This document shows, piece after piece, positions 24,606-38,035 of a stretch of DNA of 64,000 nucleotides. Origin of the DNA: Rhodoferax sp. BAB1 (GTDB taxonomy: Bacteria > Pseudomonadota > Gammaproteobacteria > Burkholderiales > Burkholderiaceae_C); contig NZ_CP054424.1 in the NCBI RefSeq assembly GCF_013334205.1, positions 2,996,001-3,060,000 of the forward strand. Reading direction: 5' to 3'. Under the pieces are notes generated by a model. The model searched no databases, was not told the origin of the DNA, and worked only from the letters and a program-made list of their open reading frames with translations. A program made the position numbers and the translations under genes. Numbering within the stretch: position 1 is the stretch's first letter; every line of letters begins with the position of its first letter.

Positions 24606-24746
24606 CCAAATGAAAGACCCGCGAAGCGGCCCTTTCATTTGGCGGCTCCACCAGGTGGAGCCGCTGCCCCTCCCGCCGGGCGGGAGGGGTTGGGGGTGGG
24701 TGCCGACATGACAGACAAGGTCTTGATCGGCACAGCCGATCAAGAC
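24606..24746. repeat. Four consecutive near-perfect stem-loops between livK and livF
   Basis: Arms: CCAAATGAAAG/CTTTCATTTGG (24606-24642), GCGGCTCCACC/GGTGGAGCCGC (24642-24664), CCCCTCCCGCC/GGCGGGAGGGG (24667-24689) and GTCTTGATCGGC/GCCGATCAAGAC (24720-24746). The last one embraces the livK stop codon. They probably protect or attenuate the mRNA downstream of livK. Confidence 0.85.
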
Positions 24747-26077
24747 TGACAGTCAGCGCCACCCCGACGTGTCAGCTTCTTCTCGGCCGCGTACTTGTCG
24801 GCCGCGTTCTTCACCATGGGCTTGATGATCTGCTCGTCAGCCTGGTACCAGTCGGAACTCCAGACGAACTTGGCGCCGTCCCAGGTGTGCACGCGGGCCC
24901 AGGAAGCGCCCATGTGGTCCTGGCAGCTGGTGGAGATCGGGCGCATCACACCCTTGAAGCCCAGCGCATCGAGCTTGGCCTGTGTCAGGTTCAGGTTCTC
25001 GTAGCCCCAGCGCGCCTGCTCGCCGGTCACCCACTTGCCCTTGCCGTAGCGCTCCTGCGCGGCGCGCGCGCCCTCCACAGCGAACATCGCTGCCTGCAGG
25101 CCGCGCATGTACAGCACCTGGCCCACTTCTTCCTTCGGGCCCGTGCCCTGGCCCTTGGCGTGCACCTTGTCCAGGATCTCCTTGACCACGGCAGCGTTCG
25201 GCTCGGCGCCGTGCTGCATCATGATGGCGTTGTAGCCCTTGGCACCGGCCCCCACGTCCTTGACGTCGGGCTCGGCACCGGCCCACCACACGCCGTACAT
25301 CTTCTCGCGCGGGTAGCCGGTGGCCTGGGCCTCCTTGAGCGCGGTGGAATTCATCACGCCCCAGCCCCAGTTGAGCACGTAGTCGGGACGGTTCTGGCGG
25401 ATCTGCAGCCAGGTGGCCTTCTGCTCCACACCCGGGTGGGTCACGGGCAAGAGGCTGAGCTGGAAGCCGTGCATGGCGGCGCGCTCCTGCAGCAGCGGAA
25501 TGGGTTCCTTGCCGAAGGGGCTGTCGTGGTAGACCAGCGCGATCTTCTTGCCCTTGAGCTTGTCGTAGCCGCCTTCCTTCTTGGCGATGTGCTGGATCAG
25601 CGTATCAGCCGCCACCCAGTAGGTGCCCGACAGCGGGAAGTTCCACTTGAAGACCATGCCGTCGGCCGACTCGCTGCGGCCGTAGCCGGCGGTGATCAGC
25701 GGGATCTTGTCGCCCGGGGCCTTCTCGGTCAGCGCGAAGGTGATGCCGGTGGACAGGGGCTGGAACACGGTGGCGCCACCGTTCTTGCCCTTGAGGCGCT
25801 CGTAGCACTCCACGCCGCGGTCGGTGGCGTAGCCGGTCTCGCACTCCTCGTAGGAGACTTTCACGCCGTTGATGCCGCCGCGCGCGTTGGTGAGCTTGAG
25901 GTAGTCGACGTAGCCGTTGGCGAAGGGCACGCCGTTGGGCGCGTAGGCGCCGGTGCGGTAGACCAGCACGGGGAAAAACTGTTCCTTGGCCTGCGCGAAC
26001 GCGGCCGTGGAACAAAGCGCACCCGTGACGGCGGCGGCCGTCAGCGAGGCGGCGAGGGCGAGTTGACGAAGCTTCAT
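24740..26077 (-). CDS. livK: LivK-type periplasmic substrate-binding protein
   Basis: A 445-aa type I periplasmic binding protein with a signal peptide (MKLRQLALAASLTAAAVTG to about AFAQ). Hallmarks are VLVYRTGAYAPNGVPFANGY, NARGGINGVKVSYEECETGY and IALVYHDSPFGKEPIPLLQE. It is longer than classical LivK (about 370 aa), like the binding proteins of Burkholderiales urea/aromatic-acid-type Liv systems. Shine-Dalgarno AGGAGA precedes the ATG. A ten-base G/C tract lies 41-50 bases upstream of the start. Ligand not predictable from sequence. Confidence 0.88.
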   Translation of the reverse strand: MKLRQLALAASLTAAAVTGALCSTAAFAQAKEQFFPVLVYRTGAYAPNGVPFANGYVDYLKLTNARGGINGVKVSYEECETGYATDRGVECYERLKGKNGGATVFQPLSTGITFALTEKAPGDKIPLITAGYGRSESADGMVFKWNFPLSGTYWVAADTLIQHIAKKEGGYDKLKGKKIALVYHDSPFGKEPIPLLQERAAMHGFQLSLLPVTHPGVEQKATWLQIRQNRPDYVLNWGWGVMNSTALKEAQATGYPREKMYGVWWAGAEPDVKDVGAGAKGYNAIMMQHGAEPNAAVVKEILDKVHAKGQGTGPKEEVGQVLYMRGLQAAMFAVEGARAAQERYGKGKWVTGEQARWGYENLNLTQAKLDALGFKGVMRPISTSCQDHMGASWARVHTWDGAKFVWSSDWYQADEQIIKPMVKNAADKYAAEKKLTRRGGADCQS

Positions 26078-26143
26078 GGTTTGTCTCCTGTAGGTAGATG
26101 GAATGGTTGAAGCACGCGGGGGGGGGGAATCAGAACAACGGTG

Positions 26144-27220
26144 TCAGTGCGGGAAGGGCCACAGGCGCAGCTTCTGCTTGCCTATGCTCCACAGCTTGGC
26201 CAGGCCGTGCGGCTCGACGATCAGGAACCAGACGATCAGTGCGCCGAAGACCATGAATTCGGTGTGGGAGATGGCCGCCGTGGAAATCTCCACGCCGACC
26301 AGGCTGCCCAGCGCCGGCAGCAGCTGGTTGAGCACGATGGGCAGCACGACGATGAAGGCCGCGCCGAAGAAGCTGCCCATGATGGAGCCCAGGCCGCCGA
26401 TGATGACCATGAACAGCAGCTGGAAGGAACGGTCCACCGAGAAGGCGGCCGGCTCCCAGGCACCCAGGTGCACGAAGCCCCAGAGCGCGCCGGCCACGCC
26501 GATGATGAAGGAGCTCACGGCAAAGGCGCTGAGCTTGGCGTACATGGGGCGGATGCCGATCACGGCCGCGGCCACGTCCATGTCGCGGATGGCCATCCAC
26601 TCGCGGCCGATGGCACTGCGCACCAGGTTCTTGGCCAGCAGCGCGAACAGCACCAGCAGCGCCAGGCAGAACAGGTACTTCTGCAGCGGCGACTCCACCG
26701 GCAGGCCGAAGACTTGCAGGTTGGACACCGAGACCGAACCCGAAGGGTTGCCGTGGGTGAACCAGCCGATGCGCAGGAAGGCCCAGTCGCAGAAGAACTG
26801 CGCGGCCAGCGTGGCCACGGCCAGGTACAGGCCCTTGACCCGCAGGCTGGGGATGCCGAAGAAGATGCCCACCAGCGTGGCGAAGAAACCGCCCGACAAG
26901 AGGGCCACGAGCAGCGGCATGCCCTCGATGCGCACGAAGGTGTTGTAGGCCGCGTAGGCCCCCACGGCCATGAAAGCCCCCGAACCCAGCGAGATCTGGC
27001 CGCAGTAGCCGACCAGGATGTTCACGCCCACCGCCGCCAGCGCCAGGATAAGGAAAGGGATGAAGATGGCGCGGAACAGGTATTCATCGGCCAGCATGGG
27101 CACGCCGATGAAGGCAAAAGCGATCAGCGCCAGGATGGCCCAGCGGTCCTGCGCGATCGCAAAGATCTGCTGGTCCGCCGTGTAGGTGGTCTTGAACTGG
27201 CCGTTTTCTCTGTAGAACAT
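26144..27220 (-). CDS. livM: Liv-type ABC transporter permease LivM
   Basis: A 358-aa inner-membrane permease with about nine hydrophobic segments. The LivM landmark VGYCGQISLGSGAFMAVGAY occurs after residue 80, and PSLRVKGLYLAVATLA and EPAAFSVDRSFQLLFMVIIGG-type segments follow. It sits between livH and livK on the same strand. The N-terminus (MFYRENGQFKTTYTAD) is hydrophilic and family-typical. Confidence 0.9.
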   Translation of the reverse strand: MFYRENGQFKTTYTADQQIFAIAQDRWAILALIAFAFIGVPMLADEYLFRAIFIPFLILALAAVGVNILVGYCGQISLGSGAFMAVGAYAAYNTFVRIEGMPLLVALLSGGFFATLVGIFFGIPSLRVKGLYLAVATLAAQFFCDWAFLRIGWFTHGNPSGSVSVSNLQVFGLPVESPLQKYLFCLALLVLFALLAKNLVRSAIGREWMAIRDMDVAAAVIGIRPMYAKLSAFAVSSFIIGVAGALWGFVHLGAWEPAAFSVDRSFQLLFMVIIGGLGSIMGSFFGAAFIVVLPIVLNQLLPALGSLVGVEISTAAISHTEFMVFGALIVWFLIVEPHGLAKLWSIGKQKLRLWPFPH

Positions 27221-27300
27221 ATCAACTACCGATCAATGATCTTTTGGCTTCAGCCGCTCACTTCGTTCGCTTAACTTGCTGCGCAAGTCAACTTTCACCG

Positions 27301-27339
27301 GAAGATCATCGCCCGCGTCATACGCGGTCGATGATCTTC
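27301..27339. repeat. Long inverted repeat embracing the livH stop codon
   Basis: Outer arms GAAGATCATCG / CGATGATCTTC (27301-27311 and 27329-27339) and inner arms CCGCGT / ACGCGG (27313-27318 and 27322-27327) make a 39-base hairpin. The livH stop (27318-27320) lies at its tip. Likely an mRNA 3'-end structure. Confidence 0.85.
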
Positions 27340-28247
27340 TCCCCAAACAAGCCCTGCGGCCGGAACAGCAGGAACACCAGCGCCAGCATGTAGGCGAACC
27401 AGATCTCGATGCCGCCGCCGACAAAGGGGCCCAGGTAGACCTCAGACAGCTTCTCGCCCACGCCGATGATCAGGCCGCCGATGATGGCGCCGGGCACCGA
27501 GGTCAGCCCGCCCAGGATGATCACCGGCAGCGCACGCAGCGCCACCGTGGCCAGCGAGAACTGCACGCCCAGCTTGGAGCCCCAGATCATCCCGGCCACC
27601 AGCGCCACCACACCCGCCACGCACCAGACGATGACCCAGATGCGGTTGAGCGGAATGCCGATGCTCTGCGCGGCCTGGTGGTCGTCAGCCACGGCACGCA
27701 GCGCGCGCCCGGTGGCCGTCTTCTGGAAAAACACCGACAGGCCGGCCACCAGCACGGCGGCAATGGCCGCGGCGATCAGGTCTTCCTGGTTGATCAGGAT
27801 GCCGCCCTCGAACACCGATGCGAAAGCGAAGATCGGCTCCTTGGGCATGCCGATGTCGATCTTGTAGATGTCGCTGCCGAACAGGGTCTGGCCCAGGCCT
27901 TCCATGAAATAGGTGATGCCCAGCGTGGCCATCAGCAGCGTGGCCGCCTCCTGGTTGACCAGGTGGCGCAGCACCAGACGCTCCACCAGCCAGGCCACCA
28001 CGAACATCACGGCGCCGGCCAGCACGAAAGCCACCGTGTTAGCCAGCCAGCGGCTTTCGATGCCAGTCCACTGCGGGATCCATTCGGCAAAACGCGCCAT
28101 GGCCAGGGCCGCGAACAGCACCATGGCGCCCTGCGCGAAGTTGAACACGCCCGAGGCCTTGAAGATCAGCACGAAGCCCAGCGCCACCAGCGAATACAGC
28201 ATGCCGGCCATGAGGCCGTTCAGCAGAGTCTCAAGAAAGAATGCCAT
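27318..28247 (-). CDS. livH: Liv-type ABC transporter permease LivH
   Basis: A 309-aa permease with about eight membrane segments. It begins MAFFLETLLNGLMAGMLYSL, typical of LivH, and contains FKASGVFNFAQGAMVLFAAL and TATGRALRAVADDHQAA (the loop that contacts the ATPase). It ends GLFGEKIIDRV, with the stop inside a 39-base hairpin. It is separated from livG by a spacer carrying an interspersed repeat. Confidence 0.9.
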   Translation of the reverse strand: MAFFLETLLNGLMAGMLYSLVALGFVLIFKASGVFNFAQGAMVLFAALAMARFAEWIPQWTGIESRWLANTVAFVLAGAVMFVVAWLVERLVLRHLVNQEAATLLMATLGITYFMEGLGQTLFGSDIYKIDIGMPKEPIFAFASVFEGGILINQEDLIAAAIAAVLVAGLSVFFQKTATGRALRAVADDHQAAQSIGIPLNRIWVIVWCVAGVVALVAGMIWGSKLGVQFSLATVALRALPVIILGGLTSVPGAIIGGLIIGVGEKLSEVYLGPFVGGGIEIWFAYMLALVFLLFRPQGLFGEKIIDRV

Positions 28248-28288
28248 CAGATACTCCCCCCCGTGGCTCGCTCACTGCGTGTAGCGGC

Positions 28289-28345
28289 CTCCCCCCTCAA
28301 GGGGGCGATGCCAGCGGCCCGGCGAAGCCGGTTCCACGGCATCCC
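28289..28345 (-). repeat. Interspersed palindromic repeat, copy 3 (inverted)
   Basis: On the minus strand the outer stem is ATGCC/GGCAT instead of AACGCC/GGCGTT, a compensatory change that keeps pairing. The inner hairpin CCGGC-TTC-GCCGG is the same as in copy 2. It lies between livG and livH. Confidence 0.82.
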
Positions 28346-28407
28346 CCGGTTGGCATCTTGTGCGCCTAAGGCACGGATTTCAACGTAATGCATCTTCATC
28401 CGCTCCA

Positions 28408-29193
28408 TCAGTGAGATGTGCCCAGATAGGCCCGGATCACTTCCTCGTTGTTGCGCACGGCATCGGGGGTGCCGTCGCCGATCTTCTTGCCGTAGTCCAG
28501 CACCACCACGCGGTCGCTGATGTCCATCACCACGCCCATGTCGTGCTCGATCAGCACCACGGTCGTGCCGAACTCGTCGTTGATGTCGAGCACGAAGCGG
28601 CACATGTCCTGTTTCTCTTCCACGTTCATGCCGGCCATGGGTTCGTCCAGCAGCAGCACCTGCGGCTCCATGGCCAGGGCGCGGCCCAGGTCCACGCGCT
28701 TTTGCAGGCCGTAGGGCAGCTGGCCCACGGGCGTCTTGCGATGCGCCTGGATCTCCAGGAAGTCGATGATGTGCTCGACGAACTCGCGGTGGCGGATCTC
28801 CTCGCGCTGGGCCGGGCCGATGCGCAGCGCCTGCAGCAGGATGTTGCTGCGGATCTTCAGGTTGCGCCCGGTCATGATGTTGTCCAGCACGCTCATGCCC
28901 TTGAACAGGGCCAGGTTCTGGAAGGTGCGCGCCACGCCCATCTCGGCCACCTGGCGGCTGTTCATGTGGTCGAAGGTCTGGCCGCGGAAGGTGATGGTGC
29001 CGTGCTGCGGCGTGTAGACGCCGTTGATGCAGTTGAGCATGGAGCTCTTGCCCGCGCCGTTGGGGCCGATGATGGCGCGGATCTCGTGCTCGCGCACGTC
29101 GAAGGAAATGTCGGTCAGCGCCTTCACGCCGCCGAAGGCCAGCGAGATGTTCTTCACATCCAGGATCACGTCGCCCAGTTTTCTTTGCGTCAT
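28408..29193 (-). CDS. livG: Liv-type ABC transporter ATP-binding protein LivG
   Basis: A 261-aa ATPase of the LivG group: Walker A IIGPNGAGKSS, signature region LPYGLQKRVDLGRAL (degenerate, as usual in LivG), Walker B VLLLDEPMAGMN, and switch His in LIEHDMGVVM. The start at 29193 (MTQRKLGDVILDVKNIS) lies 16 bases after the ligase stop; an ATG at 29250 lies inside the ligase gene. Together with LivF it would energise LivH/LivM. Confidence 0.9.
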   Translation of the reverse strand: MTQRKLGDVILDVKNISLAFGGVKALTDISFDVREHEIRAIIGPNGAGKSSMLNCINGVYTPQHGTITFRGQTFDHMNSRQVAEMGVARTFQNLALFKGMSVLDNIMTGRNLKIRSNILLQALRIGPAQREEIRHREFVEHIIDFLEIQAHRKTPVGQLPYGLQKRVDLGRALAMEPQVLLLDEPMAGMNVEEKQDMCRFVLDINDEFGTTVVLIEHDMGVVMDISDRVVVLDYGKKIGDGTPDAVRNNEEVIRAYLGTSH

Positions 29194-29209
29194 TTGATCT
29201 TCACTCTTC

Positions 29210-31147
29210 TCAGGCGACCTTGGCCGCGCCCGGGTAGCGTTTGGCGTCACGGATGGGCAGCGTGGCCGAGACGGTGCCGGTGCGGCCGTCCTCGAACTTC
29301 ACCTGCGTTTCGATGAACTGTTCCTTGCGACCCTCGTACAGGGCCTCGATCAGCACCGCGTACTTGTCGCCGATGAAACCGCGGCGCACCTTGCGTGTGC
29401 GGGTCAGCTCGTCGTCGTCGGGGTCCAGTTCCTTGTGCAGCACCAGGAAACGGGCAATCTGCGTGTCGGCCATACCGGCCTCGGCCGCCAGGTCCACGTT
29501 GACCTGCTGCACGCAGTCGGCCAGCATGTCCAGCACCGCCGGCTTGCTCGCCAGGTCCACGTAACCGCTGTAGGGCAGGCCCTGGCGTTCGGCCCAGTTG
29601 CCCACCGCCTCGAAGTCGATGTTGATGAAGGCGCAGACCTGACCGCGGCCGTGGCCGAAGCACACCGCCTCCTTGATCTGCGGGAAGAACTTGAGCTTGT
29701 TCTCGATGTAGTTGGGCGCAAAGATGGCGCCGCTGGCCATCTTGCCCACGTCCTTGGCCCGGTCGATGATGATCAGGTGGCCATCCGGGTCGATCACGCC
29801 GGCGTCGCCGGTGTGGAAATAACCCTCGACATCCATCACCTCGGCGGTGGCATCGGGTCGTTTGTAGTACTCCTTGAGCACCGAAACGCCACGCACCAGC
29901 ACTTCGCCGTTGTCGGCAATCTTGATCTCGATGCCCGGCGCCGCCTCGCCCACGCTGTTGAGCTTGACGCGGCCGTTCTTCTGGATGCAGACGTAGGCGC
30001 AGGTCTCGGTCTGGCCGTAGAGCTGCTTGAGGTTGATGCCGATGGAGCGGTAGAAGCGGAACAGGTCCGGCCCGATGGCCGCGCCCGCCGTGTAGGCCAC
30101 CCGGATGCGCGAGAGGCCCAGCACATTGCGCAGCGGGCCGTAGACCAGCGCATTGCCCAGGGCGTAGAGCAGGCGGTCCGTGAACGACACCTTGTGCCCG
30201 TCCAGGATCTCGGCGCCGCAGCGCCGCGCCACGTCCATGAACTGTTTGTAGAGCCAGCGTTTCGGGGCCGCGGCGTCTTCCATGCGGATGGAGACCGAGG
30301 TCAGCATGCTCTCGAACACCCGCGGGGGCGCGAAGTAATAACTCGGCCCGATCTCGCGCAGATCAATGCTCACCGTCTCGGCCGACTCGGGGCAGTTGGT
30401 GGTGAAACCCGCCACCAGCCACTGGGCGATGGAGAAGAGGTGGTCACCCACCCAGGCCGGCGGCAGGTAGGAAATGATGTTGTCCTCGGGCACCAGGCCG
30501 TCCACCAGCACGCCGCCCCGGGCCGCCTCGATGAAACTCTGGTGCGTCTGGCACACGCCCTTGGGCCGGCCCGTCGTGCCCGAGGTGTAGAGGATGACCG
30601 AGACGTCGGAAGGCTGGCCCGATTCGACTGAGTTCCGATAGAAGTCCGGGTGCTGCTGCTCGTACTGGCGCCCCAGCTCGAACAGGCGGGCTATGCTGAT
30701 CAGCCCTTCGTGCTGGTAGTTGCGCAGGCCGCGCGGGTCATCGAAAACGATGTGCTGCAGCAGGCCGGGCACGCTCTCGCGCAGCTCCAGCAGCTTGTCG
30801 ACCTGCTCCTGGTTTTCGGCGAAGGCGAAATGGATTTCCGCGTCTTCCAGCACAAAGGCCATCTCGCTGGCGATGGCGTCCTGGTACATGGGCACGGGCA
30901 CACCGCGCAGGCTTTGCGCCGCAATGAAGGCCTGGTAGAGGTGCGGCCGGTTGTCGCCCACGATGGCCAGGTTCTGCCCGGGCTGGAAACCCAGCGCCGC
31001 CAGGCCGCAGCTCATGAGGCGCACGTCCTCGGCGGCGCGCGCCCAACTCCAGGTCTGCCAGATGCCGTATTCCTTCTCGCGCATGGCCGGGGCCTCGGGC
31101 CGCTGCGCCGCATGCTGCATCAGAAGTCTGGGAAAAGTCGTCTGCAT
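29210..31147 (-). CDS. AMP-dependent acyl-CoA synthetase/ligase (long-chain type)
   Basis: A 645-aa adenylate-forming ligase. The AMP-binding motif is ILYTSGTTGRPKGV, the A5 region LKQLYGQTET and the A7/A8 elements GYFHTGDAG and RAKDVGKMASG, in the usual order. Long-chain or aryl-CoA synthetases of this length are common at the head of Liv operons in Burkholderiales. It is the first gene of the minus-strand operon and is divergent from a Crp/Fnr regulator 145 bases away. Its substrate is probably the acid brought in by the Liv system (inference). Confidence 0.88.
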   Translation of the reverse strand: MQTTFPRLLMQHAAQRPEAPAMREKEYGIWQTWSWARAAEDVRLMSCGLAALGFQPGQNLAIVGDNRPHLYQAFIAAQSLRGVPVPMYQDAIASEMAFVLEDAEIHFAFAENQEQVDKLLELRESVPGLLQHIVFDDPRGLRNYQHEGLISIARLFELGRQYEQQHPDFYRNSVESGQPSDVSVILYTSGTTGRPKGVCQTHQSFIEAARGGVLVDGLVPEDNIISYLPPAWVGDHLFSIAQWLVAGFTTNCPESAETVSIDLREIGPSYYFAPPRVFESMLTSVSIRMEDAAAPKRWLYKQFMDVARRCGAEILDGHKVSFTDRLLYALGNALVYGPLRNVLGLSRIRVAYTAGAAIGPDLFRFYRSIGINLKQLYGQTETCAYVCIQKNGRVKLNSVGEAAPGIEIKIADNGEVLVRGVSVLKEYYKRPDATAEVMDVEGYFHTGDAGVIDPDGHLIIIDRAKDVGKMASGAIFAPNYIENKLKFFPQIKEAVCFGHGRGQVCAFINIDFEAVGNWAERQGLPYSGYVDLASKPAVLDMLADCVQQVNVDLAAEAGMADTQIARFLVLHKELDPDDDELTRTRKVRRGFIGDKYAVLIEALYEGRKEQFIETQVKFEDGRTGTVSATLPIRDAKRYPGAAKVA

Positions 31148-31242: not shown

Positions 31243-31292
31243 TTCAGGGTAGACCCTAGGTGGTATTTTCCCGCCCACACCCCGATGACGCC

Positions 31293-32003
31293 ATGAGCAC
31301 AGAACCCAGCCTGCACCAGCGCCGGCGCGCGCCCACCGAGGCCGAACTCGCCGGCATCCCCTGGCTGTCGCGCCTCACCCCCGAGGAGCGCGCCATCGCC
31401 CTGGCCGACCTGCAGATCAGCGAGGCCCAGGCCGGTGACCTGGTCTGCCGCCTCGGCCGCCCCGTCACCTATTGGTTCGGCGTGGTCGACGGCCTGCTCA
31501 AGATGAGCGGGGGCAGCGCCGACGGCCAGGCCATGACCTTCACCGGTGTGCCGCCGGGCGGCTGGTTCGGCGAAGGCACGGCGCTCAAGCGCGAGGCCTA
31601 CCGCTACAACATCCAGGCCCTGCGCAAGAGCCTGGTGGCCGGCCTGCCGGTGGACACCTTCCACCGCCTGCTGGACCAGTCCATCGGCTTCAACCGCTTT
31701 GTCATGAACCAGCTCAACGAGCGCCTGGGTCAGTTCATCGCGGCGCGCGAGATCGACCGCATGAACAGCCCCGATCTACGCGTCGCGCGCAGCCTGGCCG
31801 CGCTCTTCAACCCCGTGCTCTACCCCGGCGTGGGCGAGGTGCTGCGCATCACGCAGCAGGAACTGGCCTACCTGGTGGGCCTGTCACGCCAGCGCGTCAA
31901 CGAGGCCCTGGCCAACCTGCAGGCGCGCGGCCTGATCCGCATCGAGTACGGCGGCCTGCGCGTGCTCGACCTGGAAGGCCTGCGCTCGCAGCGGCCGACC
32001 TGA
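31293..32003 (+). CDS. Crp/Fnr-family transcriptional regulator
   Basis: A 236-aa protein with a cyclic-nucleotide-binding-like beta-barrel (about residues 40-150, containing VTYWFGVVDGLLKMSGG and WFGEGTAL) and a C-terminal winged helix (RITQQELAYLVGLSRQRVNEAL). It has no N-terminal cysteine cluster, so it is not an Fe-S sensing FNR; the effector is unknown. It is divergent from the ligase-liv operon and likely controls it through the inverted repeat at 31225-31242. Start MSTEPSLHQRRRAPTEAEL chosen because the upstream ATG at 31260 precedes the probable promoter. Confidence 0.88.
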   Translation: MSTEPSLHQRRRAPTEAELAGIPWLSRLTPEERAIALADLQISEAQAGDLVCRLGRPVTYWFGVVDGLLKMSGGSADGQAMTFTGVPPGGWFGEGTALKREAYRYNIQALRKSLVAGLPVDTFHRLLDQSIGFNRFVMNQLNERLGQFIAAREIDRMNSPDLRVARSLAALFNPVLYPGVGEVLRITQQELAYLVGLSRQRVNEALANLQARGLIRIEYGGLRVLDLEGLRSQRPT

Positions 32004-32005
32004 AG

Positions 32006-34129
32006 TCAAAGCGGCACATCCAGGCGCGCACCCAACGTCCAGTTGCGGCCGGGTGCCGGCTCGTAGAACTGGCTGGCCGCCTGATTGACGATGACCGAAC
32101 CAACGTAGCGCTCGCCCCCCGCGTTGTCGATGCGCGCATAGGCCGTCAGCCGGCCCCGGCCCGCGGCCCAGGCCTGGCTGGCCTTGAGGTTGAACACGGT
32201 GTAGCCCTCGGCGCTCGCGGTGTTGGTGTCATTGGCGTAGAGGCGCCCGGCGCTGACGATCTCTACGCCGGCCCGCGTGCCCATACGCTGCGCCGCACGT
32301 GCGGACGGTTGCGCCTGGCTGGTCCACAGCAACTCGGAAAAGATGAAGTTCTGGGGAATGCCAGGCAGCCGGTTGTCAGCCAGCACAGTGAAAGGGGTGC
32401 CCGCGCTGATGTAGGTGAATGACTGCGAGTAGCGCGCGTCTATGGCCGTCGCCGCCAGCGACAGGCTCACCTTCGGGTGGACCAGTGTTCGCCCGGAGAG
32501 TTCCACCCCGCGCCGCTCAGTGCCAGGCGCGTTGGTGTACGCCGTCTGGCCGAAGCTGTTGCGTGCCACCACCACCTCATCCGAGGTGGTGATGTGGAAC
32601 ACAGTGAAATCCAGCCGCGAACCGGCGGTCGGCACCCACTTCAGCCCCGCCTCGTAGTGCCGGCTGGTCGCAGCCCTGAGCGTCGGATTGAACTCGGCCA
32701 GCACGGCGCCGCCGCTCTCCCGGTAGGCCACCTCGGCCAAGGTCGGCGTCTCGAAACCCTTGCCATAGTTGGCATAGAGGTTCATGGTATCGGCCGCATG
32801 CCAGGTCACCCCCAGAACCGGGTTGCTCGCCTGATAACTCACTTGACCTGAGCCGTCTCGCCCGTCCGCCAGGTAATAGTCTTCGCTGACAAAACGCACC
32901 GTGCTGTGGCGCAACCCGCCCACCATCGACCAGCGTTCCGACAGCAAGGCCGTGCCCTGCACGAAGACATCGCTGTTCTCGGCCTGGTTGTCCTCGCTGC
33001 GCGTGGTGCTGGTCTTCTCGCCCAGCGCCGCCACACCGCCCTCGCGGTATTCACGCGAACGGTCGAACTCGTAGCCCGCCACCCAGCGCATCGGCGTGGC
33101 GCCCAACCGCGATAGCGCGTTGTACTGCAGGCCCAAACCATAGTAGCCACGGTCCAGGCCGACCCAGGTGTTACCGGACTGGAACTGCAGGTTGTCGCGC
33201 GCACCGTAGTAGACACGCGCCGTGACCGAGCGGTCCGCGCCAAGTTGGTGGATCACCGAGGTGCCGACCTGACTTTGCGTCACGATCTTGCGCACCCGGC
33301 GGTCGACAGCATTGGTCCCCGCCTGCGTCGGATCCGCCGCCAGCTGCGCCGCCGTCAGGCCCAGCGGGTCCTCGGCCAGCGGCATGTCGAACTGGTTGAA
33401 AACCACATTCACGCGCGTGCCTGCGTCCGGCCCGAAACTCAGCTTGCCGTTGAACTGCTTGCGTTCGGCGGCGCTGTTGTCGCGGTAGCCATCGGTGCTG
33501 AAAGTGCCGTAGTCGGCCACCAGGCCCACGCCGCCAGGACCCGCACCAAGACGGCCTGCGTATTGCCAGTCGGTCCGGCGCATGTCGTAAGAGCCCGTGT
33601 AGAGCTGCGCACCGAACTCCGGCACCTCGGGCGCCTCGCGCGTGAAGGCCTGGATCACGCCGCCGGCCGAGTTGCCGTACATCAGGGCCAGCGGCCCGCG
33701 CAGCACCTCGATGCGTTCGGTGGACGTCAGCGCGATGGACGAGCCCTGGCCTTGCCCGTCGGGTGTGGTGGCCGGGATGCCGTCGATCAGCAGGCGGATG
33801 CCGCGGATGCCGAAGGCCGAGCGCGCGCCGAAGCCGCGGATCGAGACCTGCAGGTCCTGCGCATAGTTCTGCCGGTTCAGGATGGTCAGGCCCGGCACGC
33901 GATTGAGCGACTCCGACAGGTTGATCTGCGGGCCGGCATTCTGGATGGTCTCGCGCTCCACCGCCTCGATGGCCGCCGGTGCGTCGAAGCTGCGCTGCTG
34001 CGCGCGCGAGGCCGAGATCACCACGTCCTCCAGCGTCTGGCCCCAGGCCGGCACGGCGCCCAGGCCGGTCACCAGCAGCGCCAGCGCCGTGCGCATCGGC
34101 CGCAGGCCCGGTTTGTTTGTCTGTTTCAT
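32006..34129 (-). CDS. pqqU: TonB-dependent receptor, PqqU (YncD)-like PQQ importer
   Basis: A 707-aa outer-membrane receptor with a signal peptide ending VPAWGQ, a TonB box (LEDVVISA), a plug domain and a 22-strand barrel. I recognise blocks nearly identical to E. coli YncD: INLSESL-x-x-VPGL, NRQNYAQDLQ-x-SIRGFG, FGIRGIRLLIDGIPAT, TPDGQGQ and the C-terminal YVGSVIVN ... YYEP/FYEPAPGRN. YncD is the established pyrroloquinoline-quinone receptor PqqU. The gene follows a cytochrome c gene and a PQQ-dehydrogenase gene, which fits. Start at 34129 (MKQTNKPG) has GAG upstream; ATG 34150 is an alternative. Confidence 0.85.
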   Translation of the reverse strand: MKQTNKPGLRPMRTALALLVTGLGAVPAWGQTLEDVVISASRAQQRSFDAPAAIEAVERETIQNAGPQINLSESLNRVPGLTILNRQNYAQDLQVSIRGFGARSAFGIRGIRLLIDGIPATTPDGQGQGSSIALTSTERIEVLRGPLALMYGNSAGGVIQAFTREAPEVPEFGAQLYTGSYDMRRTDWQYAGRLGAGPGGVGLVADYGTFSTDGYRDNSAAERKQFNGKLSFGPDAGTRVNVVFNQFDMPLAEDPLGLTAAQLAADPTQAGTNAVDRRVRKIVTQSQVGTSVIHQLGADRSVTARVYYGARDNLQFQSGNTWVGLDRGYYGLGLQYNALSRLGATPMRWVAGYEFDRSREYREGGVAALGEKTSTTRSEDNQAENSDVFVQGTALLSERWSMVGGLRHSTVRFVSEDYYLADGRDGSGQVSYQASNPVLGVTWHAADTMNLYANYGKGFETPTLAEVAYRESGGAVLAEFNPTLRAATSRHYEAGLKWVPTAGSRLDFTVFHITTSDEVVVARNSFGQTAYTNAPGTERRGVELSGRTLVHPKVSLSLAATAIDARYSQSFTYISAGTPFTVLADNRLPGIPQNFIFSELLWTSQAQPSARAAQRMGTRAGVEIVSAGRLYANDTNTASAEGYTVFNLKASQAWAAGRGRLTAYARIDNAGGERYVGSVIVNQAASQFYEPAPGRNWTLGARLDVPL

Positions 34130-34154
34130 GTCGCTCTTTGTTCTTGTCATGGCT

Positions 34155-34469
34155 TCACTGTGACTCGACCCGCAGCTGCAGCGAGGCATACCACTGGGCC
34201 AGGTTGTCGATGTCCTGATTGCTCAGGGGTTTGGCGATCACGCCCATCACCTCGTGCGTGCGCTTGCCGCTGCGGTAGTTGCGCAGCTGCTCCACCAGGT
34301 AGACCTCGGGCTGGCCGGCCAGATGGGGCACGTTGGGCTGCTGGGACAGGCCCAGCGGCCCGTGGCAGACCGCGCAGGCCGTCGCCGCGCGGGCTTTGCC
34401 GGCGGCCACGTCGGCCCAGGCAACGGTGGCGGCCCACAGCAGGAGGCCGCCCACGAGCATGCTTTTCAT
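34155..34469 (-). CDS. Monohaem c-type cytochrome (c553-like)
   Basis: A 104-aa exported protein: signal peptide MKSMLVGGLLLWAATVAWA, one haem attachment site CAVCH shortly after it, and a distal Met candidate in THEVMGVIA. The PNVPHLAGQPEVYLVEQLRNYRSGKR block is typical of cytochrome c553/c4 domains. It probably takes electrons from the PQQ dehydrogenase encoded upstream. The ATG at 34469 has AAGGGA about 8 bases upstream; a GTG at 34484 would lie before it. The gene starts right after an intrinsic terminator. Confidence 0.88.
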   Translation of the reverse strand: MKSMLVGGLLLWAATVAWADVAAGKARAATACAVCHGPLGLSQQPNVPHLAGQPEVYLVEQLRNYRSGKRTHEVMGVIAKPLSNQDIDNLAQWYASLQLRVESQ

Positions 34470-34486
34470 TCGGAATCCCTTCACTC

Positions 34487-34514
34487 AAAAAAACGGAGAT
34501 CGTGCGATCTCCGT
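34487..34514 (-). terminator. Intrinsic terminator between the PQQ dehydrogenase and cytochrome genes
   Basis: On the minus strand ACGGAGATCG-CA-CGATCTCCGT is followed by seven T. It ends only some 15 bases before the cytochrome start, so it may attenuate rather than fully separate the two parts. Confidence 0.85.
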
Positions 34515-34525
34515 CGGGTCTCGGA

Positions 34526-34551
34526 CCGGTGCCGCGCTCGCGCGGCACCGG
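34526..34551. repeat. GC-rich hairpin after the PQQ dehydrogenase stop
   Basis: Arms CCGGTGCCGCG and CGCGGCACCGG (11 bp) enclose a 4-base loop. Together with the terminator at 34487-34514 it forms a double stem-loop behind the dehydrogenase gene. Confidence 0.75.
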
Positions 34552-34560
34552 GTGCAACGC

Positions 34561-35841
34561 TCAGTGGGCGTGGGTCACGCGGTAGATGGCCCCAACGTAG
34601 TCATCCGAGATCAGCAGTGAGCCGTCCTTCATCACGGCCACGTCCACCGGGCGGCCCTTGTAGACGCCGTTCGCATCGAGCCAGCCCTCGGCAAAGACCT
34701 CGGAGGCGCCGGCCGTTCCGTCAGCCTTGACCGGCACGAAGTTGATCAGCGCGCCGCTGGCCTTGGTGCGGTTCCAGGAACCGTGGGCCGCCACGAAGAT
34801 GCCGCCACGGTATTTGGCCGGGAACATGCTGCCGTTGTAGAACGTCATGCCCAGCTGCGCCTGGTGCGCCGGAAACTCCACCTGCGGCCGGGTCCAGCTG
34901 GCCGGTGCCTTCATGTCCTTGAGGTCCGGCGCCGCCCCCGTCCCGGCGATCTGGGTGCTGTTGCCGTGGATGTAGGGGTAGCCGAAGTGCTCGCCCCCAG
35001 CCTTGGTGATACGGTTGAGCTCGCCCGGCGGAATGTCGTCACCCATGCCGTCGGTCTGGTTGTCGGTGAACCAGACCGTCTTGTCCCTGGGGTTGATATC
35101 CATGCCCACCGAATTGCGCACGCCCACGGCCACCACCTCGCGTTTGGAGCCGTCGAAGGGGTCGAGGCGGATCATGCCGCCGATGCCCAGCTTCTCGTAC
35201 ATCGCCACCTTGCCCGCGGGCTGCACGTTGTAGGGCTGGCCCAGGGTGATGTGCAGCTTGCCGTCATCGCTGATGCGGCAAGTGCGCGCGCCGTGGTTGA
35301 AGGACTCCTCCTCCTCGGGAACCAGCTTGCCCTGCGGCACCACCTCGATCACCGCCACGTCCGGGCCTTCGTAGAAGAACTCGGCGGCCGGGAAGTTGAG
35401 CACGCGGTTGTGCTCCGCGACGATCAGGAAGCCGTCCTTGGTCCAGCACACACCATTGGGCACCTTGAAATTGAGCGAAGGCGCAAAGGCCTTGACCTCG
35501 TCGGCCGTGCCATCGCCGTTGCGGTCGGTCACCGCCCAGACCTTGGTCTTGCGCGTGCCCACGAAGAGCATATTGGTCGAAGGCGCCACCGCCATGTGGC
35601 GCGCGTCGGGCACCACGGCGAACAGCTCGATCTTGAAACCCGGCGGCATCTTGATGTTCTTCAGGTTGGCGCGGATCGCCTCGGCGTTGCGCCCTTCCTG
35701 GGGCACCAGCGGAATGTTCAGGTCGGTGGTGGCGACCTTCATCTGCTTGAGTGTGGAGAGATTGTCCTTGCCCGACTGCGCGCTTGCGGCGACGGCGAAC
35801 CCCGCCGCCAGCAGGGCCAGCCCCAGCTTGCGTGTGATCAT
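34561..35841 (-). CDS. PQQ-dependent sugar (sorbosone-type) dehydrogenase, periplasmic
   Basis: A 426-aa exported beta-propeller enzyme of the soluble glucose/sorbosone dehydrogenase family. After a signal peptide ending ASAQSG it shows MPPGFKIELFAVVPDARHMAV, NGVCWTKDGFLIVAEHNRVL, the VGVRNSVGMDINPRDKTVWFT strand, DDIPPGELNRI and a final LLISDDYVGAIYRV. Such enzymes oxidise sugars in the periplasm with PQQ and pass electrons to a cytochrome. A paralogue is encoded divergently at 36184. The exact sugar is not predictable. Confidence 0.88.
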   Translation of the reverse strand: MITRKLGLALLAAGFAVAASAQSGKDNLSTLKQMKVATTDLNIPLVPQEGRNAEAIRANLKNIKMPPGFKIELFAVVPDARHMAVAPSTNMLFVGTRKTKVWAVTDRNGDGTADEVKAFAPSLNFKVPNGVCWTKDGFLIVAEHNRVLNFPAAEFFYEGPDVAVIEVVPQGKLVPEEEESFNHGARTCRISDDGKLHITLGQPYNVQPAGKVAMYEKLGIGGMIRLDPFDGSKREVVAVGVRNSVGMDINPRDKTVWFTDNQTDGMGDDIPPGELNRITKAGGEHFGYPYIHGNSTQIAGTGAAPDLKDMKAPASWTRPQVEFPAHQAQLGMTFYNGSMFPAKYRGGIFVAAHGSWNRTKASGALINFVPVKADGTAGASEVFAEGWLDANGVYKGRPVDVAVMKDGSLLISDDYVGAIYRVTHAH

Positions 35842-36183
35842 GGTGAGCTCCTCTGACTGTTTTTGCTGTCATCCGGCCCGCCGACCGGTGGACCGTAGGC
35901 AGGATTAAGCCGAGGGACCTGCGCCCGTGCAAGCCGCAGCGCAGCATTTCCTGTGCGGCGTAAGGCTGTTGCCCCTGGCGCGCGCCGTGTCGGGTCGCCA
36001 GGGTGTCGCGTTTTGAGTCACTCCCGTCTGCGGCATGCCAACAAACGCAGCCCTTCATCACGGTTGCTTATATCGCTTAGTGGCCGAAGCGCATAAATCT
36101 TCAGTGGAAACCCTAGGCAGACCAATAAACACCATGCCTAGCATTGAACGGTTCTGCACAACAACACATCACGGAGACTCCCC
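35842..36183. promoter_or_regulatory. 342-base divergent regulatory region between the two PQQ dehydrogenase genes
   Basis: No gene is visible. Near the plus-strand gene there is CCTAGG at 36112-36117 and a TAGCAT -10-like hexamer at 36139-36144, which puts the CCTAGG about 36 bases before the likely transcription start. ACGGAGA just before 36184 is the ribosome-binding site. The part nearer the minus-strand gene has no clear promoter that I can name. Confidence 0.5.
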
Positions 36184-37452
36184 ATGCGCAAGCTCATTCC
36201 CCTGGCAGGTGTCCTGCTGGCCGCCGTGCTGGCCGGCTGCCAGTCCACCCCGCCGCAATCCGGCGCCACCACCACCTTCTCGGCTGCGCCGCCGGCCGGC
36301 CAGCCCGGCTGGAAGCAGGGCATGCCCGCCGCCCTGGCCAACTCCACCCTGGCGCCGCTGGCTGGCAAGAACACCGCCACCCCCGCCGCCGAGATCCCGG
36401 TCGACAAGCTCAGGCTGCCTCCGGGTTTCAAGGTGGAGGTCTGGTCCACCGGCACGCCCGGCATCCGCGCCATCTCACGCGGCGAAAGCGGCAAGGTCTA
36501 TGGCGGCACCCGCGGCCTGGGCCGTGTCTATGAGATCAGCGACAACGGCAGCGCCCGCACGAGCCGCGTCGTGGTGGACAAGCTCAAGCAGCCCGCTGCC
36601 ACCATCCACAACGGCAACCTTTATGTGATGGCCATCGACAAGGTGCTGCGTTTCGACGGCATCGAGAAGAACCCCAATGTGGCCCCGGTGGACATGACGG
36701 CCGCCTTCAAGCTGCCACCGCTGGAGCACCACAACTGGAAGTACATCCGCTTCGGGCCGGACGGCAAGCTCTACGTGCCCTTCGGCGCACCGTGCAACAT
36801 CTGCACCCTGCCCAGCGACGAGTACGCGCAGATCCGCCGTTACAACGCCGACGGCACGGGCATGGAAGTCATCGCCACAGGTGTGCGCAACACCGTGGGC
36901 TTCGACTTCCACCCGGTCACCGGCGAACTCTGGTTCACCGACCACGGCCGCGACTGGATGGGCGACAACACCCCCGAGGACGAACTCAACCGCATTCCCG
37001 GCAAGCCCTGGTACCAGTTCGGCATGGGTGGCACGCCCTTCTTCGGCTTCCCCTACTGTCATGCCAATGGCGTGGCCGACCCGGACGTGAAGAAAGCCAA
37101 CCCCTGTGACGGTGTGACCCTGCCCGTGAGCACCATGGGCCCGCACGCCGCCAACATGGGTCTGCAGTTCTACACCGGCAACATGTTCCCGGCCGAGTAC
37201 AAGAACGCGATGTTCGTGGCGCGCAAGGGTTCGTGGAACCGCAGCACCAAGATGGGCTACGACATCGTCATGGTGAAGGCCGACGCCGACGGCAAGAACG
37301 CCAAGGTCACGCCCTTCATGACCGGCTTCGCCGATACGGCCGCCAACACCTTCTGGGGCCGTCCGGCCTACATCCTGCAGATGCCCGACGGCGCGCTCTT
37401 GGTGTCGGACGAGCAGCTCGGTGCCATCTACCGCATCTCGTATGCCAGGTAA
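36184..37452 (+). CDS. PQQ-dependent sugar dehydrogenase, lipoprotein form
   Basis: A 422-aa paralogue of the enzyme at 34561. It has a lipoprotein signal (LAAVLAGC, Cys at about residue 19) and then a proline/alanine linker before the propeller, so it is anchored to a membrane and not free in the periplasm. The family strands are there: LPPGFKVEVWSTGTPGIRAI, EHHNWKYIRFGPDGKLYVPFG, VRNTVGFDFHPVTGELWFT, DNTPEDELNRI and LLVSDEQLGAIYRI. The dihaem cytochrome gene starts inside its 3' end (11-base overlap), making an electron-transfer pair. Confidence 0.88.
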   Translation: MRKLIPLAGVLLAAVLAGCQSTPPQSGATTTFSAAPPAGQPGWKQGMPAALANSTLAPLAGKNTATPAAEIPVDKLRLPPGFKVEVWSTGTPGIRAISRGESGKVYGGTRGLGRVYEISDNGSARTSRVVVDKLKQPAATIHNGNLYVMAIDKVLRFDGIEKNPNVAPVDMTAAFKLPPLEHHNWKYIRFGPDGKLYVPFGAPCNICTLPSDEYAQIRRYNADGTGMEVIATGVRNTVGFDFHPVTGELWFTDHGRDWMGDNTPEDELNRIPGKPWYQFGMGGTPFFGFPYCHANGVADPDVKKANPCDGVTLPVSTMGPHAANMGLQFYTGNMFPAEYKNAMFVARKGSWNRSTKMGYDIVMVKADADGKNAKVTPFMTGFADTAANTFWGRPAYILQMPDGALLVSDEQLGAIYRISYAR

Positions 37453-38035
37453 GACGCCGCCTTTCATCGGCACAAGCAGGGCCCTGGTAGCAGCGGCCCT
37501 GCTTTTTTTCGTGGGCGCCCCGCAGGCACAGCAACCCCTGCGGCTGGAGCTGTGCATGGCCTGTCACGGCCCGCAGGGCAACTCGCAGAACCCGCAGATC
37601 CCCTCGCTGGCCGGGCAACCGAAGATCTTCGTGGAGAACCAGCTGGTGCTGATCCGCGAAGGCCTGCGCGACATCCCGCCCATGAAAGGCACACTCGACG
37701 GCCTGAGCGACGCCGACCTCATCGTGCTGGCCCAGTACTTCACCGCACAGACTCCCGTGCCAGTCCTGGCCGGCCCGGTGGACACGGCCCGCTACGAACG
37801 CGGCCGGGCGCTGGCGGCCTCCATGCTCTGCGGCAGCTGCCACCTGCCGACCTACCGGGGCCGGGAACAGATCCCCCGCCTGGCAGGCCAGCACGAAAGC
37901 TTCCTGCGCACCGTCATGCAGGAATACCGCGACAAACCCGGCCCCGGCCGCGACACGGTCATGACCAACGCCCTGCTCGGCGTGAAGAACGATCAGCTCG
38001 ACGACCTGGCGCATTTCCTGGCCCACTTCAAATAG
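37442..38035 (+). CDS. Dihaem c-type cytochrome (c4-like)
   Basis: A 197-aa exported protein with two cytochrome domains, haem sites CMACH and CGSCH, and Met ligand candidates in the PPMKGTL and DTVMTNA segments. It has a signal peptide ending PQAQQ. The ATG at 37442 overlaps the dehydrogenase gene by 11 bases, which is why this start is chosen over 37421. It is likely the electron acceptor for the lipoprotein PQQ dehydrogenase and would pass electrons to a terminal oxidase. Confidence 0.9.
   Translation: MPGKTPPFIGTSRALVAAALLFFVGAPQAQQPLRLELCMACHGPQGNSQNPQIPSLAGQPKIFVENQLVLIREGLRDIPPMKGTLDGLSDADLIVLAQYFTAQTPVPVLAGPVDTARYERGRALAASMLCGSCHLPTYRGREQIPRLAGQHESFLRTVMQEYRDKPGPGRDTVMTNALLGVKNDQLDDLAHFLAHFK

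Follow-up and report, generated by a model that had tools for sequence, protein, structure and literature searches.

A pqqU gene adjoining two predicted PQQ-dependent dehydrogenases and two cytochromes c in Rhodoferax sp. BAB1

Gene content of the locus and of the genome

We analyzed a stretch of 64 000 nt from Rhodoferax sp. BAB1 (contig NZ_CP054424.1, hereafter the window) and observed five genes at positions 32006–38035: pqqU, a mono-haem cytochrome c (cytA), dehydrogenases A and B and a di-haem cytochrome c (cytB). All five are present as an earlier note on this DNA had described them, namely a receptor, two paralogous dehydrogenases and a mono- and a di-haem cytochrome. A minus-strand set composed of pqqU, cytA and dehydrogenase A faces a plus-strand set composed of dehydrogenase B and cytB. 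The features are as follows:

32006..34150, minus strand: pqqU, TonB-dependent receptor, predicted PQQ importer (the longest open reading frame reaches 34189)
34155..34469, minus strand: cytA, secreted mono-haem cytochrome c (PF00034, one CxxCH, signal-like N terminus)
34487..34551, minus strand: two tandem hairpins in the gap between the dehydrogenase A gene and cytA; a run of seven T behind the second makes it terminator-like (terminator scan)
34561..35841, minus strand: dehydrogenase A, a secreted GSDH/AA12-like enzyme of the six-bladed type, predicted to depend on PQQ
35842..36183, no strand: intergenic region between the divergent gene sets (from the gene coordinates)
36184..37452, plus strand: dehydrogenase B, AA12-like lipoprotein paralogue (PF07995; N-terminal LAGC, which we take to be the lipobox)
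37421..38035, plus strand: cytB, di-haem cytochrome c (two CxxCH, PF00034 and PF13442; likely start at about 37442)

The likelier start of pqqU is 34150 or 34129, directly past the cytA stop at 34155, and 4 bases lie between this stop and the ATG at 34150. On the other strand, the 5′ part of cytB overlaps the 3′ end of the dehydrogenase B gene. The hairpin stretch has a fold z of −5.3, and hairpins were present in all five other A-type dehydrogenase–cytochrome gaps that we folded. A single five-gene operon is ruled out by the divergence of the two sets and by the hairpins with their T tract between dehydrogenase A and cytA. No sigma-70-like site was found in 35842..36183 by a consensus scan.

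The earlier note had held that a full pqq operon in the genome would speak against its reading. In the one-contig genome a profile search for pqqC and pqqE found neither gene; the same pqqC model detects its gene in 48 of the 250 order genomes searched. The only pqqE match (51.6 bits, cut-off 381) turned out to be MoaA instead (TIGR02666, 375 bits, cut-off 284). A PQQ producer is thus unsupported, and judged by these two genes the cell seems unable to make PQQ. Regarding possible users of the cofactor, A and B are the only GSDH-family genes of the genome. PF13360 gave two stretches above cut-off in one frame, which from its position beside a Der-type GTPase is presumably BamB, and one further match below cut-off.

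Identity of the receptor and of the two dehydrogenases

The best NCBIfam model for the receptor is PqqU (NF041535) with 488 bits, the runner-up reaching 152 bits, and the PDB chains matching at E ≤1e-20 are solely those of YncD/PqqU (E ~1e-110). The long near-identical blocks with YncD that had been claimed are found in the plug, where 63 of 90 positions are identical in block 60–149, but not over the whole receptor, which is just 38% identical to E. coli YncD (245 of 644 aligned positions). According to Munder et al. 2025 (PMC12124388), in the part of the article used here, the PqqU signature consists of Y, F or W at position 99, R304 and R365 in E. coli numbering; the window receptor carries F, R and R at these sites. 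Comparison with the PqqU structure, as the earlier note had proposed, showed that the key PQQ-binding residues of the solved complex are retained; of six further contacts, five (Q84, Q121, K274, Q308 and Q310) are unchanged and R536, described as semiconserved, is Q. By profile score, PDB matches and PQQ contacts the receptor sorts with YncD/PqqU and not with siderophore receptors. With 488 bits it misses the NF041535 equivalog cut-off of 1200 bits, which was reached by none of the 250 genomes of the order and none of 369 genomes of the class, and is reached by E. coli among 14 controls. The receptor is named PqqU here by a residue criterion applied to its sequence, not as an NCBIfam equivalog.

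The missed cut-off, the Q at R536 and the low overall identity to YncD would also suit a receptor with some other cargo, such as a siderophore or a different anionic compound, that stands beside the dehydrogenases incidentally. However, we consider this improbable, as the key PQQ-binding residues are retained, all other receptor models score at most 152 bits and at 47 of the 89 loci surveyed below pqqU has a candidate PQQ enzyme or a pqq gene no more than 7 kb away.

Dehydrogenases A and B share 34% identity with each other and score 44.8 and 39.3 bits against PF07995 (GSDH), both passing the gathering score of 25. Using scored alignments to TrAA12 and CcPDH we located the CcPDH PQQ contacts H363, R430, N431, H539, W563 and N564, all of which are present in A and B. 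Equivalents of R273 and R621 are R81 and R397 in A and R95 and R393 in B, assigned by means of a profile alignment to Asd and a motif, the R273 assignment being less sure as a stretch of negative score suggests another position. The calcium ligand D451 corresponds to D264 in A and D257 in B, and the position of S449, a backbone calcium ligand, holds Q or G, which is uninformative for a backbone ligand. At H560, reported as unique to AA12 in the source text used, A has H and B has K (K348). The model of A is predicted to have the AA12-type six-bladed fold, and in structural comparison A fits AA12 structures better than those of Asd/YliI and sGDH (Met1 is missing from the model of A and from alignments A1 and A2, so that their numbering is that of the protein minus one). 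We regard A and B as predicted PQQ-dependent dehydrogenases. Of the 'sugar oxidation' in the earlier note, GSDH/AA12-like membership stands, based on PF07995 and the ligand residues, whereas the sugar substrate is taken from the family label.

The modest PF07995 scores would also be consistent with A and B working without PQQ, as propeller lactonases or as different enzymes retaining the GSDH fold; lactonases share the fold of A at lower Z (~23–25), and the literature searched yielded no activity report for the A/B subgroup. Against this, 21 linked proteins retain the CcPDH ligands for PQQ and calcium, with exceptions at H560 and, in one case, at R273, the ligand positions are invariant in 58 aligned relatives in all cases but H560, and the cytochrome c neighbours of the AA12-linked proteins fit a dehydrogenase role. 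We hold this alternative to be unlikely.

Recurrence of the linkage and proposed mechanism

For the survey of the order we searched 250 genomes, calling genes in the compared genomes with a caller weighted by codon-position GC, and found 87 PqqU-bearing genomes with 89 pqqU loci; PqqU counts are lower bounds, as at most the four best candidates were scored per genome of the order and three per genome of the class. In 19 of the 87 genomes, the window included, pqqU lies within 2.2 kb of an AA12-like dehydrogenase gene, compared to a rough chance expectation of 0.2, so that the adjacency exceeds chance. These 19 genomes were counted without kinship correction and spread over nine families; one of them (G204) has a weak 124-bit match, and 18 are without pqqC. 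At six more loci pqqU stands beside a GSDH of the Asd/YliI type; the nearest PQQ gene is a GSDH at 25 of the 89 loci (19 AA12-like, 6 Asd type) and a pqq gene at 17, and at none of the 89 were both kinds observed within 7 kb. At half of the pqqU loci lacking pqqC (28 of 56) we saw no PQQ gene up to 7 kb away, although contigs are cut short at some of them. Beyond the order, linkage as a general trait is weak, with a pqqU–dehydrogenase link in just 2 of 32 PqqU-bearing genomes. A PF07995 gene occurs in all 32 of these genomes versus 46 of 80 without a PqqU match (Fisher p 1.5e-6), the 80 being taken at steps from genomes without a match at E 1e-90.

The self-contained unit of import and use put forward earlier gains support from the recurrence in nine families and from the 18 of 19 genomes without pqqC, in the form of two divergent sets and not of one operon. 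Since the receptor carries the signature, the enzymes retain their ligands and neither pqqC nor pqqE was found, PQQ is probably taken up by the cell and put to use at this locus. We consider it likely that the locus is a PQQ scavenging-and-use module. Gene content, the lack of pqqC and pqqE matches, ligand residues in receptor and enzymes, the fold of A and recurrence are computed observations, and we infer PQQ as actual ligand and cofactor, its import, electron flow, substrate and regulation. PqqU would capture traces of PQQ that other organisms produce and, driven by TonB, transfer it into the periplasm, where apo-A and apo-B would bind it together with calcium at an AA12-type six-bladed propeller site. 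The substrate that both enzymes then oxidise may be an aldose, an aldehyde or something similar, with electrons passing from A to the mono-haem CytA and from B to the di-haem CytB, and from there to the respiratory chain. Points against such a module are the missed NF041535 cut-off, Q for R536, K for H560 in B, the lack of kinship correction and the weak match of G204 in the survey, the pqqC-lacking loci that show no nearby PQQ gene, the scarce linkage beyond the order, and pairs of a type-A dehydrogenase and a cytochrome c that also occur elsewhere without a nearby TonB receptor. That imported PQQ serves mainly as an antioxidant with the enzymes secondary, one option offered in the part of Munder et al. 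2025 used here (PMC12124388), is very improbable with candidate enzymes of retained ligand residues adjoining pqqU.

Relation to known systems and to the published PqqU survey

A close parallel is E. coli PqqU (YncD) with the PQQ enzymes Gcd and YliI: here too a non-producer imports PQQ with high affinity and in dependence on TonB, and the receptor family and key residues are the same. The E. coli pqqU, Gcd and YliI genes are scattered over the genome, whereas in the window receptor, enzymes and cytochromes adjoin and the enzymes are AA12-like. The fungal AA12 pyranose dehydrogenases CcPDH and TrAA12 share the six-bladed fold, the residues for PQQ and calcium and the pairing with a cytochrome, which in CcPDH is its own cytochrome b domain (PMC6881789, in the part used). 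In contrast, the window enzymes are bacterial, have ~20% identity in structural alignment and have a separate cytochrome c as partner. A pqqU gene beside the pqq biosynthesis operon, noted for four Burkholderiales genomes in the part of Munder et al. 2025 used here (PMC12124388), likewise places pqqU among PQQ genes, but there for synthesis and in the window locus for use. We found no published account of a pqqU–dehydrogenase–cytochrome locus in the literature searched, judged by title or abstract start (further base, used in part: PMC7193533, PMC13088180, PMC6881810), in agreement with the earlier note, which knew of no description as one locus. The parts are known; for the arrangement no description was found in that literature.

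Many betaproteobacteria have similar groupings, and ammonia oxidisers have a related one; the family of the latter was reported, in the source text used, with the receptor but without the enzyme. Of the 51 loci titled Nitrosomonas, 37 have an Asd/YliI-type GSDH downstream of pqqU. Munder et al. 2025 (PMC12124388) described PqqU-bearing Nitrosomonadaceae and some other groups without any PQQ enzyme and left the purpose of PQQ open. The Pfam families named in the part of their survey used here are PF01011, PF13360 and PF13570, next to the dehydrogenase HMM of Diamond et al.; coverage by this HMM apart, GSDH (PF07995) is not among them. We see about even chances that many PqqU bacteria regarded as orphans are wrongly so called, that their PqqU feeds six-bladed GSDH quinoproteins uncounted in the survey, that Nitrosomonas are PQQ auxotrophs scavenging the vitamin for a sugar or aldehyde dehydrogenase in the periplasm, and that pqqU, GSDH and cytochrome c make up a portable vitamin-use module across Betaproteobacteria. 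The linked GSDH genes offer a direct candidate answer to the purpose of PQQ in PqqU bacteria without a known enzyme. If this reading is true, the chemolithoautotrophic ammonia oxidisers of Nitrosomonas would depend on a scavenged vitamin. The linked loci point to redox-vitamin cross-feeding in nitrifying and other communities, as well as to an uncharacterised quinoprotein family that is probably coupled to cytochromes.

Receptor and gene order at the locus

Window positions 32006-38035 hold two gene sets in divergent orientation, which comprise, together with a neighbouring regulator-type gene:

34561-35841, minus strand, dehydrogenase A, a predicted secreted PQQ enzyme
34155-34469, minus strand, mono-haem cytochrome c
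start at 34150 or 34129, minus strand, pqqU, 4 or 25 bases past the cytochrome stop
36184-37452, plus strand, dehydrogenase B, a lipoprotein
end at 38035, plus strand, cytochrome c with two haem motifs, overlapping B
31260-32003, Crp/Fnr-type gene, oriented towards pqqU from the opposite side

The closest named relative of A in a protein search was a Curvibacter sp. PAE-UM protein (92% identity). A separate minus-strand stretch (24740-31147) reads as a branched-chain amino-acid-type ABC transporter set with a large AMP-dependent CoA ligase; LivM and LivH were the best models for its two permeases, with scores under those models' cut-offs.

The window receptor scored 488 bits with the PqqU model versus 152 for the next-best model, and its PDB matches at E 1e-20 or better were YncD/PqqU chains only. 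Munder et al. 2025 (PMC12124388) recognise PQQ importers by Y/F/W99, R304 and R365, and we observed F, R and R at these positions; Q84, Q121, K274, Q308 and Q310 were present as well, and the position of R536 carries Q. Across the survey set (88 fetched loci plus the window, n = 89) this three-residue mark was found in 87 receptors, the other two (L137, L138) being fragments, a frequency that is no independent test because the set was picked by the PqqU model. Position 274 is E in five surveyed receptors (L092, L127, L131, L134, L135), a residue proposed to permit metal co-transport (Munder et al. 2025, PMC12124388), V in L100, L107, L108, L110-L113 and L124, R in L098, L104, L106, L128-L130, L132, L133 and L136, and L in L119.

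PQQ genes in the genome and in related bacteria

The lack of pqq synthesis genes that the earlier note had noticed in the window held for pqqC and pqqE when these two were sought throughout the genome (a single contig of 3,820,375 bases, 99.72% complete): no pqqC was detected by a model that was positive in 48 of 250 Burkholderiales genomes, and the sole pqqE match was MoaA. PF07995 matched A and B only, and the one frame over the PF13360 cut-off adjoins a Der-type GTPase and is, by that position, presumably BamB, which leaves A and B as the only PQQ enzyme candidates found.

In the order survey (250 genomes, this one counted in) PqqU was matched at E below 1e-60 in 87 genomes and an AA12-like dehydrogenase at 220 bits or more in 76. 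The two genes lie within 2.2 kb of each other in 19 genomes from nine families, one of them (G204) with a weak AA12-like match of 124 bits, and 18 of the 19 are missing pqqC. For the 88 pqqU hits outside the window about 7 kb per side was fetched, or up to the contig end, and the nearest PQQ gene within 7 kb was scored per locus, ignoring kinship. Among the 56 loci of pqqC-less genomes it was AA12-like in 18, of Asd type in 6, an eight-bladed alcohol dehydrogenase in 3, pqqB in 1 (a genome only 78% complete) and none in 28; for the 33 pqqC-bearing loci the counts were 16 pqq genes, 1 AA12-like, 2 eight-bladed and 14 none, both 'none' counts being upper bounds since contigs end early. In the 16 loci of pqqC-bearing genomes where pqq genes are nearest (L066, L067, L081, L082, L084, L088, L089, L092, L102, L104, L106, L119, L128, L130, L132, L133), pqqB or pqqC is no more than 7 kb from pqqU, and in 11 of them a pair of genes, apparently for a histidine kinase and for a LuxR-type regulator, stands ahead of pqqU. 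Munder et al. 2025 (PMC12124388) report pqqU next to pqq synthesis genes for four Burkholderiales genomes, fewer than the 16 loci found here. At L103 (genome G211) a receptor frame with an inner stop adjoins a short GSDH-like fragment and a di-haem cytochrome, so that the receptor-dehydrogenase-cytochrome unit may be decaying there.

Beyond the order, PqqU was matched at E below 1e-90 in 35 of 369 genomes of the class, 32 of them new relative to the order survey. Each of these 32 has a PF07995 gene, 13 have pqqC, and in two (G427, G288) pqqU adjoins the GSDH gene; for comparison, 80 genomes were sampled stepwise from the set lacking a PqqU match of that strength, and 46 of these have PF07995.

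Nitrosomonas and family f16

Munder et al. 2025 (PMC12124388) list Nitrosomonadaceae with PqqU and with no PQQ enzyme, and concede that their own search may have overlooked one. In survey family f16, five of six genomes examined match ammonia monooxygenase (PF02461), and none of the four PqqU-bearing genomes has pqqC. An Asd-type GSDH immediately follows pqqU in G015 and G214 (the latter without a PF02461 match) and lies 2.8 kb away in G146; none was found within 7 kb in G183. A scan of named genomes with the f16 PqqU gave 59 loci (L141-L199), 51 of them titled Nitrosomonas, titles that do not span all Nitrosomonadaceae. A same-strand Asd/YliI-type GSDH was observed downstream of pqqU in 42 of the 59 (37 of the 51), within 400 bases in 23 of the 42, and other frames intervene at four wider-gap loci inspected. 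In eleven loci at least 3 kb of sequence is available downstream and contains no Asd-type GSDH, and six end too early. The Nitrosomonas-type GSDH scored 361 and 320 bits against solved GDH/Asd chains and 479 bits with PF07995, and all 40 strong copies carry the HFGSR motif with the catalytic histidine. Directly behind the active-site arginine, 25 copies have S, 9 have H and 2 have N, the pattern leaving 4 unmatched; as E. coli Asd has N there, its replacement mostly by S or H makes the PQQ claim for Nitrosomonas somewhat weaker.

Predicted cytochrome partners and the reading of the locus

Of 7 A-type genes, 6 have a mono-haem cytochrome of a shared cluster no more than about 80 bases away, and a di-haem cytochrome overlaps or abuts 8 of 14 B or other genes; no mixed pairing occurs among these 7 and 14 genes. 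Further di-haem frames, outside the count of 8, are at or beside the L077, L078 and L079 genes and beside the L126 B gene. Such pairing is expected if electrons pass from enzyme to cytochrome. Each of the six folded gaps between A and its cytochrome (window 34487-34551; L123, L094, L121, L126, L064) contains a strong hairpin, with z between -2.8 and -5.3, and in four, including the window, a T run lies behind it. Partial termination at this hairpin would yield more enzyme than cytochrome and receptor.

The dehydrogenase-cytochrome pair is not exclusive to pqqU: at L237, on plasmid p1 of Caballeronia sp. Sq4a, an A-type dehydrogenase and a cytochrome c lie a few genes from modABC, and none of the 17 annotated features around the A-type gene is a TonB receptor. 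Taken together, the arrangement of pqqU, dehydrogenase and cytochrome is real, recurrent and made of known parts, and our findings strongly predict, in a form open to experiment, that PQQ is both imported and used at this locus.
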